Source of the DNA: a virus
Virus record (IMG/VR): IMGVR_UViG_3300028734_000030
Location: 1-48,376 of that record
Reading direction: 5' to 3' (one strand)
DNA: 48,376 nucleotides
Of this stretch, positions 3,945-37,023 are shown in pieces; position 1 is the first letter of the stretch; every line of letters begins with the position of its first letter. A model generated the notes under the pieces. The model saw only the letters and a program-made list of their open reading frames with translations. It made no database searches and was not told where the DNA came from. Position numbers and translations under genes: made by a program.

Positions 3945-6900
3945 ATGGCTATTCCATCTTATGAGGATTTTAAAAAGAATCCAGAACCGATAAAGCCTGC
4001 AACGCCATCTTATGATGACTATGTGAAAAGCCAGACGAGTGCTACTACATTAGGTGCGTATGGCAGAACTTTGGGGCAAGCGTTCAAGGGATTGCCGGCT
4101 ATGGTAGCTCAGACCTATGAAGGCGGCACACCTTACGATGAACAAACTAAAGTTGATGAGTTAATTGCTAAACAGCAAGCGGAAGATACTGCTTTTGCCA
4201 ATCAAACGGGTGCGGATCAACCTGCGTTTGGTGGCTTGTTTGGTGATAAAGCGACCATGCGAGATATTTACAATACTGCTCCCAGTATGCGTTCATCTAT
4301 GGCTGCTATAGCACCTACGGTAGCAGGAGCCAAAATAGGCGGCGCTTTAGGAAGTGTTGTTCCAGGCGTAGGAACAGCAGTTGGCGCAGGTGTAGGCGCA
4401 TTGGCCGGAACTGGTGCCAGTTACTTAGGGATGGCTAAACAGTCTCAAAACCAAGCTATACGGCAAAATATTGATAAAGCCAATTATGAGCGTGAACAAG
4501 CGGGCCAACCGCCATTAACACCCGTTGAAGCCAAAGCTATGCAGGATAAGCTTAACGCTACCGGAAAACCACAACTTTATGGCGCAGCAGAATCCGCTGG
4601 TGAATCATTAGGGGCTTTAGGCGAGTATGCCTTAATGAAATCCCCGTTAGGTCGTGTAGGAGAGGCTATTGGAACTATTACCAGTCCGTTAAAACGTGCC
4701 TTGATAACAGGTGGTATTAAGGGGGGCGGTACATTATTAGGTGAAAATCTTGAAGAACAAGCCACTAATGTTGTGCAAAACCCTATTCAGAAAGAATGGG
4801 GGATACCAGAACAGGGCGCAGGCGAAACGGCCAAACAAACGACAATAGCCACCGCTCCTATGGCGTTATTAGGATTGGGTGTAGGTGCTAAACAAGGATG
4901 GCAACAACCTTATACGCCACCAGCAGGCCCTCTCACCAGAGCCAGAGACGCAACCCAAGCACCTATACAACCAGTAACCCCTGAAGTTACAACAGAAACA
5001 ACCCCTATAGGTGCAGAAAATGCCATCCTTGGAAGAACTGCAACAGCAGCTAACAGACCTGTTACAGCAACAGGAGAAACTGTCAGCCCGGCAGGAATAC
5101 AACGCACTGGAAATGCTGAATATCAAGGCGTTAATCAGCAATTTGGAGCAGGAAATAAATTGGCAAACGGAATCAATTCAACGAGCGAAGGACAATTACC
5201 AGGACGCAACAGCCCTGTTACACGGGGAGTTGAGACGACAATGCCTGAAATTAAAGGACTTGGAACAGGGCAACAAACATTTACGCAGGAAGGAAGACGA
5301 CAACAAGGTACTACGGAGGAAGGAGGACAATCCCAAGGACAACCAATAATTTCACCCGCACCAGCGGCCACACTCACCCAACCGGAGAAGCCACATGGCA
5401 AAGCCGAAGAAATCACAGGAAAAAATGCCCCCGAAGCCGGGCAAAAAACCCTGCTAGAAGAAAAGACAGCGCCTGAGAATAAACCCTTGGGCGCTGAATT
5501 TACGCCGACGCATATTGACCCCGCCGACGATACGAAGTTGATGCACCTTGGCGGTAATGATTATCTTGACCAGGATAAATTCAACGCAATACAAAGAGGC
5601 GAAGCCGTTGACCCTTGGACATTTAACCCTGAAGATGTAGCACCCTATGAAGCACCTGCAAAACCAACTAAACCAACTCCTGGCGCACAACAAAAAGCAC
5701 CCGAAGGAACAAGTACACCTAAGCCCAGCACTACGGGCGTTAGCGAAGAAACACCAGCCCAGCAGACTGGAACGGCTGAGGGATTGGCTTCTGGACTGAA
5801 GCAACCTTGGGAAATGACGAGTGAAGAAGCTGCACGTCAGGGAATAGATAATGGCGGACACCGTGATGCCGTTGAAAAAGCTTTCAAGAGTGGTGAAAAC
5901 ATACCGGATAAAGTGCTTAAGGACTATCTCTGGTTAGCGGCAGAGAAAGCCAATAGGCCTTATGCTGATAGTCTAAAAAATCTTTCTGACAAGGAACTCA
6001 AGGCTGAAGAAAAACGTACTGGAAATGAATTAAATAGTTGGGCTAATCGCACACCAGGGATTATTGACAATAAAATCAATCCAGCATTACAAACGCAAGA
6101 AGGCCATGATTACAGTGAAAAGTATAGGTCTGTTATTAAGGAAATTGACTCACGCGAAGCTAACTATGGAAAACCCACACAAACCGAAACCAAACCAACG
6201 CAGCCAGCACCCAAGTCCGAAGCGCCTACCGCAGAAGCGCCGATGTTCACCAAAAACGGCCAGCCACAGACTTTTAAGAGCGAGAAAGGCGCTAACCTTG
6301 CCATCCAGTTAAAGAAGGCTAAGGAAACCCATACGGCGGTACAGCAGGGCGATAAGTGGATTGTGCAAGCAAAATCAACAACACCGCCGACGCCTATTCA
6401 AGAAAGCGCACCAGCGGCGGTTACTTCAAAAGGCGCATTGCAAACAAAGGTAGATGAACACTACAAGGCATTATTAGAAACCGATAAGTCAAAAGGTCTT
6501 GTTGATGCGTGGAATGTTGTGTCGGCTACGTTAAGAGACAATACGGATGAAACTTTTAAGAATCACATAAAATCCGCTATCGAATACAATCGCGTGAATA
6601 AAACTCATGCAAAAATAATACAAGACCTTATCGACAAAGAAGCAACCGCCCAGCCCACGGCCAAGGCCGAGCCGGGCAAGGCCGAACAACCCGCACCGGA
6701 AGCCAAGTCACAAGCCCAGTCAGAAGCGCCCGAAGCCAAGGCTGAACAGGTTAAGGCTGAACTTGTAAAGGTAAAAGATACTTATGGTAGCAGTCATCTT
6801 GTTGATAAACGAGAGCTTGATTCAGACAGGACTATGCTTAGGCGATTTAACCGCGATGGAAGAAAAATTGATGGCATGATTCACCGCGATAATATTGACT

Positions 6901-20827: not shown

Positions 20828-21898
20828 TCAGGTTATTGGTGAATAGGGTCTATTTGAGCGTTTAGCACAGTATGTAGCTCTCGCTACTGCTATTCTTGCT
20901 TTAGTTATTCCAGAATGTTTAGTGCCAGTGCATCGTTTTCTATTTGCTTCTGCTAAATTAAGCCTATGTTCTTCAGAATGAGGAACGCCTTTTTTTGCTA
21001 TGGACAAATTTTTCTTGGCTTCTTCAGATAGTTTCTTTCCTAAAGAATTTGTATTTCCTTTTGATGCCTCAGCCATTTTTTCTAAAGCCTCTTTGGTATG
21101 CTTATAACCTAAGGCATAAGTATTCCCTGTATGAAATTCAGATAGTTTTGCACGGCGTTCTGGCGTCATTCTTTCTTTTGAAATTAACGATATTTTTTTC
21201 TTTGTTTCTTCTGAATGTTTCTTTCCTGTACTAATAATTGACATTCTTGCTCGCCTTTCATCGGTCATGATTTTTTTTTGACCTTCTGACATTCTTGCTC
21301 TCATTTCATCTGTTCTAACTTTTCCGCGATTAGAATTACCAGATTTTATATATATCTCTGGTGGCCTATTTTTATTTCTAATTGTTGTTAAAACCCTTAA
21401 TTTAGCTCTTGTTTCTTCTAAAATCGGTGGCCTTCTTTTTTGTGCATCAGAATTTTTTTTGCGCGTTTCTTCTGATATATTCTTTTTAGAATCAGACATT
21501 TTTTTACGGGTTTCTTCAGAAATGTTTTGTTTTGAAGCAGTCATTCTTTGGCGAGTTTCTTCTGAAATAATCCTGTTTCTCATCTTTTCACGAGTTTCTT
21601 CGGAAACTATCAAACCTAAAACGCCTTCACCACCATGCGTTAAGTTATATCCGTTGGGTGCTTTTGATTTGTATTTATCAATAGCCTCCTGTTCTGCCAA
21701 ACAAAGTAATTCCCAATTATCTGTTTCAGCCAATACCGTTATAACTACGTTTTCCCTGCCATATTTTTTTATAGCAGGATTTAGCGCGGTATTTCTTGAT
21801 GTTCTTCTACAGTGATACTGGAACCTTTTTATTGCGGTTAAAGATGTAATTCCGATGTAACTTTTCCCGTTAGGAAATTACAGTTTATAAAGTTCCAT
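20828..21898 (-). pseudogene. GIY-YIG homing endonuclease broken by an in-frame TAA
   Basis: From the ATG at 21898 the frame reads MELYKL, then TAA (21878-21880), then FPNGKSYIGIT... and continues open for 349 codons. The stop falls between the two strands that form the GIY and YIG motifs; compare LYKISFKTSGRAYIG in the intact relative at 36106-37023. Downstream are KAPNGYNLTHGGEGV and about ten NUMOD3-like units (SEETRKKMS) that bind DNA. It sits between the RecE-like exonuclease stop and the next early gene as a free-standing insertion. Without suppression, only a 301-residue protein lacking the catalytic start could be made. Confidence 0.75.
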
Positions 21899-22924: not shown

Positions 22925-23052
22925 TAGATCACCATTAGGGTTAGAGCTAAAAGTGTAAGGATAACTGTTGTTAGTGTTTTAACACCAGTGTCAGCGGCTA
23001 TTTTGGGTTTTTCCAGCAGCCTGGAACGGTCAGCCCAGTCGGTTTGTTTCAT
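22924..23052 (-). CDS. Small single-span membrane protein
   Basis: 42 residues: a charged N terminus (MKQTDWADRSRLLEKPK) and a C-terminal hydrophobic helix (LTTVILTLLALTLMVI). The start overlaps the previous stop as ATGA, and its stop overlaps the next ATG. Both overlaps support expression. Function unknown. Confidence 0.5.
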   Translation of the reverse strand: MKQTDWADRSRLLEKPKIAADTGVKTLTTVILTLLALTLMVI

Positions 23053-23192
23053 TTGCCCAACTCTTTTCTTAGTTTTCTTTGGAATCTTTCTGGGGCGTTG
23101 TTTTCATGCTCATCCAGAAAGATTCCGGTCACGATAATTAAGGCACTCAAGCCTACAATCCACATGATTGTATTTAAAATAATCGTTAACAT
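23049..23192 (-). CDS. Small membrane protein with basic tail
   Basis: 47 residues: an N-terminal membrane helix (IILNTIMWIVGLSALIIVTGIF) and a charged C-terminal tail (PERFQRKLRKELGK). It overlaps the upstream gene stop and, by ATGA, the downstream gene. Function unknown. Confidence 0.5.
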   Translation of the reverse strand: MLTIILNTIMWIVGLSALIIVTGIFLDEHENNAPERFQRKLRKELGK

Positions 23193-23575: not shown

Positions 23576-23782
23576 TTATTTAGATTCAAAATTAGCACAA
23601 TCCTTTGTTTTCCATGTTGGATCGTAATTTATAGGATAAAAAAACCAACCCATTTTTATGCCATGTTTATGGCCCGTCATATTTGGATCAGGATTAACAC
23701 ATGAACTGTGATAAACATCACCTGGAACATTGCCGCGATGTTTGCACTGGTAGCACTCGTTCACCATATTAAGATCGGTCAT
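23576..23782 (-). CDS. Small cysteine-rich protein
   Basis: 68 residues with CYQCKHRG, a later SSCVNPDP and a final DCAN. The order C-x2-C ... H..SC ... C suggests a metal-binding site. The segment HGIKMGWFFYPINYDPTWKT.DCANFE looks like a conserved phage family. The ATG overlaps the upstream stop (ATGA). Function unknown. Confidence 0.6.
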   Translation of the reverse strand: MTDLNMVNECYQCKHRGNVPGDVYHSSCVNPDPNMTGHKHGIKMGWFFYPINYDPTWKTKDCANFESK

Positions 23783-24090
23783 AGTAGCTTAACCAGTACA
23801 GCCACAATGCCAATGGCAACAACCATCATGCTACCCAGTTTTATCGTCAGGCGTTGTTCTAGTTGAATCAGGTCTTGTTTGGTTGCCAGTTCTTTTTGCG
23901 CTTCAACAATGCCGCGCACAATGGCACGAGCTTGATCGTGTGGGATTCCAGAAGCCTTTAAATCTTCGACTAAGCGATCAGCCTTTTCCTCATGCTGTGC
24001 CGCCAGTTCAAGGACAGGGGCGTTACCCTGCAACCACGCGGCAATTATGCCAGTCATGGCTGCATCATCAAGAGCGTTGCGCCCGCGCAT
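23779..24090 (-). CDS. Chimeric ORF: Vsr C-terminal tail fused to a DUF1640-like coiled-coil membrane protein
   Basis: 103 residues. Residues 1-33 (MRGRNALDDAAMTGIIAAWLQ.NAPVLELAA) match the tail of very-short-patch-repair endonucleases. From about 37 on (ADRLVEDLKASGIPHDQARAIVRGIVEAQKELATKQDL) it matches DUF1640-like proteins: a coiled coil ending in one membrane helix (SMMVVAIGIVAVLVKLL). No start codon with a ribosome site is evident at the DUF1640 boundary, so the protein is probably made from within the Vsr remnant or not at all. The left half is much more GC-rich than its neighbours. Confidence 0.6.
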   Translation of the reverse strand: MRGRNALDDAAMTGIIAAWLQGNAPVLELAAQHEEKADRLVEDLKASGIPHDQARAIVRGIVEAQKELATKQDLIQLEQRLTIKLGSMMVVAIGIVAVLVKLL

Positions 24091-24235
24091 CGCACATTCC
24101 CAAACAGTGGCAACCCGCCAGCCTGCGGCTGTAAGAGCTTCCGCTGCCCGCCGGTCGTTGTCGCGGTTGCGGTCTATCTTTGCCTGCCAGAACTCGCGGC
24201 GGGTGGCGGGCAGGCGGAAAAGCGGGCAGGCGTCT
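23998..24235 (-). pseudogene. vsr: Remnant of a Vsr mismatch endonuclease (C-terminal part)
   Basis: In the frame of the chimeric ORF but upstream of its ATG, the translation reads DACPLFRLPATRREFWQAK, IDRNRDNDRRAAEAL, TAAGWRVATVWECAMRGR. This is the second half of a Vsr endonuclease (FW..K...N..RD....L...GWRV..VWEC). The N-terminal half with the catalytic Asp and the start codon are missing. Upstream, the frame runs into an unrelated HTH coding segment. Vsr genes normally accompany cytosine methyltransferases and repair T:G mismatches. Confidence 0.75.
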
Positions 24236-24329
24236 TGGGGGCAACACTGAGCTTTGCGGCCAGATCACGCTGGGTAAAGCGTTGTCTGGCTTCCTGAAGC
24301 AGCGGTAATGCGGTAGCCTGTTGTATCAT
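24174..24329 (-). pseudogene. Remnant N terminus of a DNA methyltransferase-type HTH protein
   Basis: 51 codons starting MIQQATALPLLQEARQRFTQ, then RDLAAKLSVAPKT, then out-of-frame Pro/Ala-rich sequence to a TAG. The helix-turn-helix (LLQEARQRFTQRDLAAKL.VAPKT) is the N-terminal module found on some cytosine-5 methyltransferases. After VAPKT the sequence switches to the Vsr frame. The simplest explanation is one deletion that removed the methyltransferase body and the first half of vsr. Confidence 0.6.
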
Positions 24330-24416
24330 TTTGGGTAACTCGTCTGGGAATTTTAGCGGACATTATGACCTATAATATTCCCTTTTTCCAGCGATCAGTG
24401 TCAAAAGTTATCGTAC

Positions 24417-24620
24417 TCATTGTTTAGTCTCCTTTTTAATTTTTGGGTAAATATCAGGCCGCAGATCATATAGCGCGATGCTAAAGTGGAGTGATACTCG
24501 CTGGCAATACTTAGCAGGAAGTTGGCGTAGTCCTTTTTTTATCTGGTAAGCAAAGCCATCTGTTGTACCCAAGAATCTAGCTAGTTCCCTCGTGCCAACG
24601 TCGGTTATCTTTTTACTCAT
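24417..24620 (-). CDS. YdaS/Cro-like HTH repressor
   Basis: 67 residues: VGTRELARFLGTTDGFAYQIKKGLRQLPAKYCQRVSLHFSIALYDLRPDIYP. The small HTH followed by LP..Y......F.I.LYDLRPDIYP is typical of the YdaS/Cro family of phage regulators. It is the second gene of the leftward early operon, where a Cro-like or antitoxin-like regulator is expected, and would bind operators in 24835-25630. It overlaps the first gene by 8 bp. Confidence 0.75.
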   Translation of the reverse strand: MSKKITDVGTRELARFLGTTDGFAYQIKKGLRQLPAKYCQRVSLHFSIALYDLRPDIYPKIKKETKQ

Positions 24621-33755: not shown

Positions 33756-35993
33756 ATGTTTACTGACACCGAACGAGAGATCGAAGATCCCCAAGACGCA
33801 GAAGCCAGCGAAGGCTTGTCATTGGACGAATTTACCAGTTTCTTTCACGAGATATTGCAACAACCCGCTTGGCGCAAACAAGCCGACCGCGAGAACGATT
33901 ACAAAGACAATAATCAGCTAGACAATGAAATCCTGCAAAAAATGGCCGCATTGGGCCTACCCCCCGCTGTAGAAAACCGCATAGGCTTGGCGATAGAAGC
34001 GATATTGGGGCAGGAAGCCAAGCGGCGAACCGATTGGCGCGTGATTCCCGATGGTGATAAATCGGGGCAGGAAGTGGCCGATGCTTACAATTACAAACTT
34101 AACCAGGCCGAGCGCAAGAGTCGGGCAGACCGGGCTTGTAGCGATGCCTACGAGTCTCAGGTATCCGTGGGCTTAGGCTGGGTCGAAGTCAGCCGAGAAC
34201 CGGACCCGTTTAAATACCCGTACCGTTGTACCGCTATCCATCGTAATGAATTGTGGTGGGACTGGGACGATAAATCACCGATGTTGGACAATGCCCGTTA
34301 TCAAATACGGATGCGCTGGATAAATAAGGATATTGCCAAGTTGCAGTTTCCTGATTCAGCAGACTTGCTAGAGCATGTCGTGTCAGGCTGGCCGGGCTTT
34401 GATGCTTTCAGCCTTGATGGTGGCCGTGCGACCGGGCTGGCGATGGCCGCGAATGTAGAACGCGGCTGGTCCATCGAAGAACAGCAATGGCGCGACGTTG
34501 AACACAAGAAAGTCAGGCTGTTTGAATGTTGGTATCGGGTTTGGTCGAACGCTTTAATCATGAAGATGCCCGATGGTCGCGTGGTTGAGTTCGATATGGA
34601 TGACCCGTTGCACCTGCAAGCGATCACGTTAGGAGGTATCAAGCCTGAATATGCTGTTATCAACAAAGTTAGACGAAGCTGGTGGGCGGGACCGCATAAA
34701 CTGGGTGATGAACCATCCCCTTACCGTCATCATCATTTCCCTTATGTCCCGTTTTGGGGGCATAGAGAGGACAGAACCGGCGTACCGTTTGGGCGGATAA
34801 GGTCGATGGTTTATCTCCAGGATAATATCAACGCTACAATCTCAAAGATACGCTGGGGCCTCAGTGCTACAGTCACCACAAGAACAGACGGTGCTGTACT
34901 GGGAAGTGATGAGCATTTTAGGGAAGAAGTGGCGCGTCCCGATGCCGATGTAATACTGGATGCTGCTCACATGGCGCAACCCGGAGCACTATTCAAGATC
35001 GACCGCAATTTTGAATTGAACCAGCAACAGTACAATATGCTTAATGATGCTCGTGAAGCCATCCAGAAAATAGGCGGTATATCTGAGGAATTTCAAGGGT
35101 CATCAACTAACCAAAATCAATCAGGGGTGGCGATAAATGCCAAAATCGAACAAAGCTCCCAGTCTTTAGCCAACATTGACGATAATTTTAAGGAGAGCAG
35201 GGCGCAAGTAGGTGAGTTGTTACTCGCTTTGCTCATACAGGATAGCGTAGGCAAACCAGAAGATGTGGTTATCGACGGAGGCGCGTTGAAAGATGACCAG
35301 GTTATCCAGCTTAATGCCAAAACCGTAGACGAGGATGGCTTGGAATATCTGAATAACGATGTAGAACGTACCATGATGAAAGTCGTTTTAGATGATACCC
35401 CGCAAACAAGCTCATTTCGAGTGCAGCAATTCTCAGCTTTGAGTGAGGCATATAAATCAAGCCCTCCAGAGTATCAACGTATCATTATGCCTTTTTTAAT
35501 TAACCTTTCAGACATCCCAAATAAGGAAGATATTGTTTCAGCGATTAAGGAAACAGACAAACAGCCAAGTGCAGACCAACAGGCCATGGAAGCCAAGATG
35601 AAAGAAATTGAGATTAAGATGATGCTGGCACAGGCGCAGATAAAGCAGTTAGAGGCAACAGCTACCAAGACCCTAGTTGATGCCCAGTTTGCCAGTATGC
35701 AGGCAGGCAGTCAGGTGGTGCTACAACCGGCTATCGCGCCGGTAGCAGATCAGGTATTAGTAAACGCAGGTTATCAGTCGCCGACCCCAGCTGGAATTGA
35801 CCCAGGCTTTAGCAATCAACCTTATCAGCAACCACAACAGCCACCGCAACCTTCACCTGAAGCCCAACAACAGGCAATGCTAGGACAGCAATCGCTAACG
35901 CCAAATACCTCGCCGCAAATGCCAGCCGTGCCACAACAGGCGGGTTCTGCACAGAGCGGAATTGAGACCTCACGAAATGAGAATATTGGGTGA
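33756..35993 (+). CDS. Portal protein, P22-like
   Basis: 745 residues. The sequence AALGLPPAVENRIGLAIEAILGQ, RRTDWRV, then QSGVAINAKIEQSSQSLANI and a helical barrel region match P22-type portals, and the C-terminal part (about 680-745) is a Gln/Pro-rich tail. The portal dodecamer forms the DNA channel and the site for terminase and the adaptor. The gene ends directly before the GIY-YIG insertion. Confidence 0.88.
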   Translation: MFTDTEREIEDPQDAEASEGLSLDEFTSFFHEILQQPAWRKQADRENDYKDNNQLDNEILQKMAALGLPPAVENRIGLAIEAILGQEAKRRTDWRVIPDGDKSGQEVADAYNYKLNQAERKSRADRACSDAYESQVSVGLGWVEVSREPDPFKYPYRCTAIHRNELWWDWDDKSPMLDNARYQIRMRWINKDIAKLQFPDSADLLEHVVSGWPGFDAFSLDGGRATGLAMAANVERGWSIEEQQWRDVEHKKVRLFECWYRVWSNALIMKMPDGRVVEFDMDDPLHLQAITLGGIKPEYAVINKVRRSWWAGPHKLGDEPSPYRHHHFPYVPFWGHREDRTGVPFGRIRSMVYLQDNINATISKIRWGLSATVTTRTDGAVLGSDEHFREEVARPDADVILDAAHMAQPGALFKIDRNFELNQQQYNMLNDAREAIQKIGGISEEFQGSSTNQNQSGVAINAKIEQSSQSLANIDDNFKESRAQVGELLLALLIQDSVGKPEDVVIDGGALKDDQVIQLNAKTVDEDGLEYLNNDVERTMMKVVLDDTPQTSSFRVQQFSALSEAYKSSPPEYQRIIMPFLINLSDIPNKEDIVSAIKETDKQPSADQQAMEAKMKEIEIKMMLAQAQIKQLEATATKTLVDAQFASMQAGSQVVLQPAIAPVADQVLVNAGYQSPTPAGIDPGFSNQPYQQPQQPPQPSPEAQQQAMLGQQSLTPNTSPQMPAVPQQAGSAQSGIETSRNENIG

Positions 35994-36105
35994 TTTAGTG
36001 TATACTGTAAGTGTGACTAGGCTCGACTTAATTACTCGATCCGAAAAGCGGCCATCCACGCCGCCGTCACATCCTCAACGTGGACTTAAAACAGTGGAGT
36101 TTAAG

Positions 36106-37023
36106 ATGGGCCAGTTATATAAAATATCGTTTAAAACCAGCGGTCGGGCTTATATCGGTATAAGTTCTATGTCGGCCGATATTCGATTCAAAGCACATTC
36201 GCATGAAAAGAATAATTATCCTATTGGACTAGCGTTCAAAAAATACGGTGTCGATGATGCTGTGTTAACCATATTAGCCGAAGAAAACGACTGGGCTACT
36301 TTATGTCAAATGGAAATAGCGGCCATTGCTGAACATAATACTAAATCACCGAACGGTTACAATATTACGAATGGTGGCGAAGGCGTTGTCGGAAATGTAT
36401 GCACGGAAGAACAAAATAAAGCCAATTCGGAAAGAGCAAAGATACGATTTTCAACACCAGAGGCTCGCCAAGCAAATTCAGAGCGTATGACATTGTATTT
36501 TTCAAATCCTGAAGCGAGAAAAGCTCAATCAGAACGAAAGAAAGCATATTTTGATTCAAACCCGGAAGCCGGAAAAGCACACTCAGAACGAGCAAAACTG
36601 TGGCTTTCCACACCAGAAGCACGTAGAGCTAATTCAGAAAGAGGGAAGTTAAGGTTTTCTAAACAAGAAGAACGTAACGCTGCTTCAGAAAGAACAAAAT
36701 TGTATTTTTCAAACCCGGATGCGCGCAAAGCTCAATCAGCAAGCCAAAAACTTAGGTTTTCAAATCCAGAAGAATGCAAATCTATCTCAGATCGCCAAAA
36801 GTTACGATTTTCAAATCCTGAATCACGCAAAGTTTTATCAGAAAGCCAAAAACTAAGGTTTTCAAACCCCGAAGAAGGCAGAGCTATTTCAAAAAGACAA
36901 AAATTACTGTATTCAACACCAGAAGCAAGAGCAAGACAAAAGTGTTATCTTGCAGTAGGCTGGGCAAAAAAAGCAGGACGACCATTCTCATATTTACCTA
37001 AAGCACTTAACAGCAACCTTTAA
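36106..37023 (+). CDS. GIY-YIG homing endonuclease with 17-residue repeats
   Basis: 305 residues from the ATG at 36106, with GGAG 7 bp upstream. GQLYKISFKTSGRAYIGISS is the GIY-YIG start, then IRFKAH and AFKKYGVDD..LTILAE, then KSPNGYNITNGGEGVVG. The rest is ten tandem repeats of about 17 residues (SER.KL.FSNPEARKA), a NUMOD3-like DNA-binding array. A free-standing endonuclease placed between the portal and a head gene. The relative at 20828-21898 is broken. It should cut the empty site in related phages and spread by repair. Confidence 0.85.
   Translation: MGQLYKISFKTSGRAYIGISSMSADIRFKAHSHEKNNYPIGLAFKKYGVDDAVLTILAEENDWATLCQMEIAAIAEHNTKSPNGYNITNGGEGVVGNVCTEEQNKANSERAKIRFSTPEARQANSERMTLYFSNPEARKAQSERKKAYFDSNPEAGKAHSERAKLWLSTPEARRANSERGKLRFSKQEERNAASERTKLYFSNPDARKAQSASQKLRFSNPEECKSISDRQKLRFSNPESRKVLSESQKLRFSNPEEGRAISKRQKLLYSTPEARARQKCYLAVGWAKKAGRPFSYLPKALNSNL
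36424..36936 (+). repeat. Ten tandem 51-bp repeats within the endonuclease gene
   Basis: Units of 17 codons (one of 18) with consensus NSERAKLRFSNPEARKA. Successive units start at 36424 and 36475 and continue to 36936. Divergence between units at the DNA level shows the array is not newly expanded. Confidence 0.8.

Follow-up and report, generated by a model that had tools for sequence, protein, structure and literature searches.

The locus analysed here is a small phage gene of the DUF1640/CCDC90-like type that is interrupted by a 408-bp, GC-rich segment homologous to dcm-vsr loci; all of its features lie on the minus strand. It was found in the virus record IMGVR_UViG_3300028734_000030, whose complete sequence of 48,376 bp is referred to as the window in the following. 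The portal shows 44–46% identity to its counterparts in F116-like Pseudomonas phages and a Shewanella phage, and the window also encodes an integrase, a protein resembling exonuclease VIII and a P-like helicase loader; the virus is thus a phage of the temperate type. Two free-standing homing-endonuclease-like ORFs are located elsewhere in the window (20828–21733, minus strand; 35962–37023, plus strand): one contains NUMOD3 motifs (E 9e-21), the other matches GIY-YIG weakly (E 0.007) and has short repeated motifs.

The interrupted gene begins with an ATG at 24420. Its severed 5′ end (24391–24420) encodes MSTITFDTDR, the break falls between codons 10 and 11, and the frame then continues through six insert-derived codons into a stop (WKKGIL*). 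After an interruption of 408 bp the gene resumes at 23981, and the remainder (23779–23981), comprising a coiled coil and a C-terminal hydrophobic segment, is intact to its stop. The tail (...ADRLVEDLKASGIPHDQARAIV...VLVKLL) is about 86–90% identical to unsplit DUF1640/CCDC90-like proteins; homology among them is clear by alignment, even though the match to Pfam DUF1640 (PF07798) remains below the cut-off with a value of 0.059; the unsplit homologues themselves gave 6e-5 and 4e-4 (20–23 bits against a cut-off of 33.5). These homologues (L006, L007, L009, L010 and L011) start with M(S/T)T..FDT, which in the first four reads M(S/T)T(I/V)SFDTDRLVEDLKSSGLPHDQARAIVRG.... In five empty-site viral contigs (L006, L007, L009, L010 and the matching locus L008) the same gene is uninterrupted: Where the empty-site genes read continuously through GACACTGACCGACTGGTTGAAGATTT, the window has GACACTGATCGCT-insert-CTGATCGCTTAGTCGAAGATTT, and the insert is absent from L006, L007, L009 and L010. 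The phage-related contig L011, which has several blocks in common with the window, likewise has its DUF1640 gene unsplit, and in the same surroundings. In L006, DUF1640-like genes occur in tandem (4639–5204, also recorded as L116), in the order full copy, truncated start (ATGGCAACGATAACGTTTGATACA...) and short copy homologous to that of the window. In the window, the stop of a YdaS-like HTH gene (24417–24620, minus strand; E 7e-7, just short of the Pfam cut-off) overlaps the start of the split gene. The preliminary description had placed the whole arrangement at 23779–24329, an interval that does hold the pieces it named; the feature, however, starts at 24420, since the severed first ten DUF1640 codons lie upstream.

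The insert occupies 23982–24389 and is flanked on either side by one copy of the exact 9-bp direct repeat CTGATCGCT. The left copy (24390–24398) marks the precise point at which the split gene parts from the unsplit ones, and a repeat search located the right copy at 23973–23981; the empty-site relatives have a single related copy, CTGACCGA or CTGACAGA, at the matching position. As the repeat stands on both sides of roughly 408 extra bases and is single in the homologues, the locus is an insertion bordered by a 9-bp direct repeat. Most simply, this repeat is a candidate target-site duplication; alternatively, it could represent microhomology. The repeat search yielded no matching inverted repeats at the insert ends, and neither a transposase nor an IS end was seen within the 408 bp; the insert thus lacks the terminal inverted repeats and the transposase by which a transposable element would be recognised.

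Read leftward from its upstream edge, the insert starts with a dcm promoter (24362–24390), the −35 hexamer TGGAAA of which sits at the extreme insert edge and is separated by a 17-nt spacer from the −10 hexamer CATAAT. The viral contig L147 has TTGACA-N17-CATAAT upstream of dcm, in the same geometry and position, and the 5′ end of the insert, including promoter and operator, is 81–88% identical at the DNA level to the corresponding regions of the dcm-vsr-R loci on two Pseudomonas plasmids (NZ_AP019413, NZ_CP085685). The leftover promoter may still be firing. It is overlapped at its −10 hexamer by an operator-like quasi-palindrome, GGTCATAATGTCC (24358–24370), which has no second copy in the window. 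The identical 13-mer precedes dcm at 11 bacterial loci, i.e., on two Pseudomonas plasmids and at nine loci of Burkholderia or Paraburkholderia. Of the 83 fetched loci, 15 have the HTH motif, and such an operator lies near dcm in 12 of them; the 68 loci lacking the motif have none. The operator recurs a few tens of nucleotides before dcm in further viral contigs. The operator pattern was also found in 17 other viral contigs, which we take as chance matches because none has a recognisable dcm start directly downstream.

Downstream of this operator, an ATG at 24329 opens MIQQATALPLLQEARQRFTQRDLAAKLSVAPKT, the N-terminal HTH of a cytosine methyltransferase. Only the first 33 dcm codons are present (24231–24329); they are cut at ...VAPKT in the expected recognition helix and continue as a 51-residue ORF (24174–24329), the last 18 residues of which are read out of frame from vsr. 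An HTH N-terminus, here truncated, thus follows a GGTCATAATGTCC-type operator, the arrangement by which we recognise an HTH-regulated Dcm-Vsr module. MIQQATALPLLQEARQRFTQRDLAAKLSVAPKT is 40% identical to residues 1–42 of the Dcm of Burkholderia phage KL3 (E 2e-7 in a single comparison) and 62% identical over 26 residues to a viral-contig Dcm; a Pfam search for the C5 methyltransferase domain (PF00145, with the catalytic PC motif) gave no hit. From about 24228 and in another frame than the dcm start, CPLFRLPATRREFW... represents the C-terminal half of Vsr (23985–24228), which starts at the C73-equivalent and ends at most a few residues before the natural terminus, with the stop codon lost. This half matches PHROG 13076 (E 4.6e-24, profile positions 70–151 of 154), residues 72–145 of the E. 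coli Vsr structure 1cw0 (E 5e-19) and, with its GWRV..VWEC stretch, positions 73–119 of 119 in TIGR00632 (48.8 bits, below the cut-off of 97.85). No Vsr-half query from the window matched the Pfam Vsr domain (PF03852), which on KL3 Vsr covers residues 3–74 and which contains the catalytic centre in the E. coli enzyme. As the remaining Vsr half starts near the C73-equivalent, essentially this whole domain and the known catalytic residues are gone. With the Pfam Vsr domain and the entire methyltransferase domain missing, both Dcm and Vsr are predicted to be dead. The leftward order that had been described, in which an HTH start runs into the second half of Vsr in another frame and the Vsr tail continues in frame into a DUF1640-like protein, is thereby borne out for all three parts on the minus strand, as is their location in a GC-rich island (locally up to 0.645 compared to 0.439 for the whole window).

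By comparison with relatives, the junction between dcm and vsr can be placed within a few bases at 24228–24237: the relatives run KT(V/I)RRWEKGE, whereas the window proceeds from KT straight to the Vsr sequence CPLFRLPATRREFW. Judging from the KL3 gene lengths, about 1.4 kb would be missing relative to gp47-gp46, namely the remainder of dcm and the first ~72 vsr codons. An 11-bp exact direct repeat (CGCCTGCCCGC / GCGGGCAGGCG; 24206–24216 and 24222–24232) is found at this junction and may be due to chance in GC-rich DNA or be related to the deletion. A 16-bp duplication at the same place was considered and rejected, as CPLFRLPATR is collinear with CYLFKVPATR of E. coli.

We then asked how widely the arrangement is distributed. 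A 25-base pattern spanning the left junction retrieved, besides the window, only two viral contigs: IMGVR_UViG_3300028763_000047 is 100% identical to the window over 10,456 bp, and IMGVR_UViG_3300028650_000008 is 99.8% identical, differing by one 18-bp gap away from the junctions; where they overlap a further 10-kb stretch of the window, identity is 100% for both. The three assemblies are one virus. The gap is a deletion relative to the window at about 23073–23090, within a small ORF (23049–23192). Although metagenome contigs are the only sources, a one-off misassembly is unlikely because the same structure occurs in two further contigs; as these carry different IMG data-set numbers, one of them has its gap elsewhere, and a misjoin would not typically produce a 9-bp duplication there, we consider an assembly artefact most improbable. 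DNA searches of the phage and plasmid collections gave no phage match, and among plasmids matches confined to the dcm promoter of the two Pseudomonas plasmids. We also looked for the case that the preliminary description had named against itself, many phages sharing a conserved, coding HTH-Vsr arrangement. Some phages do have dcm and vsr together in intact form, such as KL3 and the viral contigs L135, L136, L138 and L139; in those contigs, however, vsr follows on the 3′ side of dcm at about the distance expected for full-length genes, and the join of HTH to Vsr half, like the left junction, is confined to this virus, so that a conserved coding arrangement has a negligible probability. A search of viral contigs with full-length Dcm found intact modules, none within a DUF1640 gene, and a search of genomes with the Vsr half reached about 40–64% identity at best. 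Neither these searches nor the left-junction and operator patterns found an intact ancestor with full dcm-vsr in the same DUF1640 gene. Because the arrangement was found in this virus only, and not in the other phages and plasmids searched, it is the pseudogene scar of one lineage, ordinary in kind, and not a conserved gene.

At the downstream end of the insert, the Vsr tail continues without a stop into the DUF1640 remainder, and the undamaged frame includes an open frame of 103 residues (23779–24090). This putative product could be read from an ATG at 24090, seven bases downstream of the weak ribosome-binding-like sequence GGGA. The preliminary description regarded it as a possible new chimera; as a retained gene, it would be driven by the dcm promoter and still work as the membrane protein, with a new N-terminus. 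The undamaged frame would equally fit a retained gene, and the promoter-like TGGAAA-N17-CATAAT upstream, the high identity of the tail to unsplit homologues and the sequence identity of the three assemblies at the scar are in keeping with it. The Vsr part is, however, a non-catalytic tail, the conserved N-terminal MxTxxFDT of the family is lost, and GGGA is the sole signal before the ATG. Moreover, the three assemblies do not measure selection because they are one virus, and the DUF1640 gene is accessory and looks dispensable, as the related phage contig L133 has no DUF1640 match within the aligned stretch. We therefore think a meaningful chimera unlikely. That the dcm promoter and operator place the Vsr-tail/DUF1640 protein under the host Dcm, thereby creating a phage gene that senses the host methyltransferase, is very unlikely indeed; this would need a host Dcm recognising the same operator as that of the scar.

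Taken together, we favour, with a probability of roughly 0.87, the insertion of a Dcm-Vsr module into the DUF1640 gene and a later internal deletion, leaving a pseudogene scar. The ancestral module would have comprised a CCWGG cytosine methyltransferase, solitary or restriction-linked, with an autorepressing HTH N-terminus, and the T:G mismatch endonuclease Vsr. Together with its own promoter and operator, it would have entered the small phage gene between codons 10 and 11, leaving the 9-bp duplication behind. An internal deletion of ~1.4 kb would later have joined the HTH start of dcm out of frame to the second half of vsr, thereby killing both enzymes. As the right edge of the insert falls in the last vsr codons, the vsr stop would have been lost, and the in-frame reading into the DUF1640 remainder would be a matter of chance (1 in 3). 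This order of events is the probable one, and probably no function is left in any product of the scar. The import of a methyltransferase-Vsr module and a deletion inside it had already been suggested, yet one insertion and one deletion explain the locus and a second deletion is unneeded: Both of the joins described earlier exist, but that between Vsr and DUF1640 is the boundary of an insertion in a pre-existing gene and not a deletion. Since no intact ancestor was found, insertion and deletion could in principle also have been one event, in which an already rearranged dcm-vsr fragment was captured by illegitimate recombination at the 9-bp microhomology; neither a transposition-like step nor a later deletion in the phage would then have taken place. 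The missing terminal inverted repeats and transposase and the 11-bp repeat at the dcm/vsr junction would suit such a capture, whereas the insert edges, a dcm promoter on the left and the vsr end on the right, are those expected from a once-whole module; we rate it as possible but doubtful. Entry itself may have proceeded by transposase action or by capture at microhomology. Under the favoured insertion and later deletion, the case documents the gain and loss of a methylation-repair module by a phage, with empty site, short duplication and internal deletion all legible.

Insertions of this kind have precedents: Restriction-modification genes are known to integrate with duplication of the target, and in aberrant IS1-linked cases the duplicated stretch can be 9 bp long (PMC3031569 and work cited there). 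Such insertions resemble the window in that a methyltransferase-containing segment lies in a target gene next to a short duplication and differ from it in the IS linkage. The closest phage-borne counterpart is KL3, in which gp47-gp46-gp45 encode an EcoRII-type methyltransferase, Vsr and an EcoRII-C endonuclease, and for which protection of the phage DNA and VSP repair by the intact module were proposed (PMC3091744). KL3 has the same dcm-vsr order, the HTH N-terminus and, 38 nt before the dcm start, a one-base variant of the operator, GGTCAAAATGTCC; in contrast to the 33 dcm codons and half vsr of the window, its genes are full length and accompanied by the restriction enzyme, and encoded identity is only 40–50%. 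A benefit of the original module to our phage, namely methylation that shields its DNA from CCWGG-cutting host enzymes, is plausible because CCWGG falls short of expectation in the window (86 sites observed, 127 expected by a Markov estimate), a deficit that CCSGG does not share (59 against 58.5). The shortage of CCWGG suggests earlier exposure to CCWGG-specific restriction or to Dcm mutation.

With respect to regulation, M.SsoII and M.Ecl18kI offer the nearest parallel. The HTH N-terminus of M.SsoII represses its own gene via the regulatory site AGGACAAATTGTCCT (PMC3978073), with which GGTCATAATGTCC agrees at 11 of 15 positions, flanks counted. Both autoregulating methyltransferases share with the window an HTH N-terminus and a quasi-palindromic operator at the promoter; in the window, by contrast, the HTH is cut short, the methyltransferase domain is gone and operator binding is putative. 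More generally, HTH-type dcm starts on chromosomes, plasmids and phages are preceded, a few tens of nucleotides upstream, by a strongly conserved element that resembles an operator, GG(T/A)CA.AATGTCC, with GC.AAAAT.CCCAG often coming next, and the genes concerned mostly adjoin vsr (L002, L003, L016, L018, L020, L022, L024, L027, L029, L034, L046, L111, L135, L136, L138–L141 and L147). By analogy to M.SsoII, this element likely serves autoregulation. The operator, being common to HTH-type dcm genes of all three replicon types, would predict autorepression throughout the family and is the more reusable by-product of this analysis. The two Pseudomonas plasmid loci differ from the window in having a complete dcm that does not sit within a DUF1640 gene; the vsr of NZ_CP085685 lacks an annotation, and its upstream part looks broken. 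In the Pseudomonas ficuserectae plasmid (L002, 5315–5760), no annotation covers the vsr that separates dcm from the restriction gene; this vsr has an open frame beginning about 100 nt later than expected and looks frameshifted, as if it were another decaying vsr.
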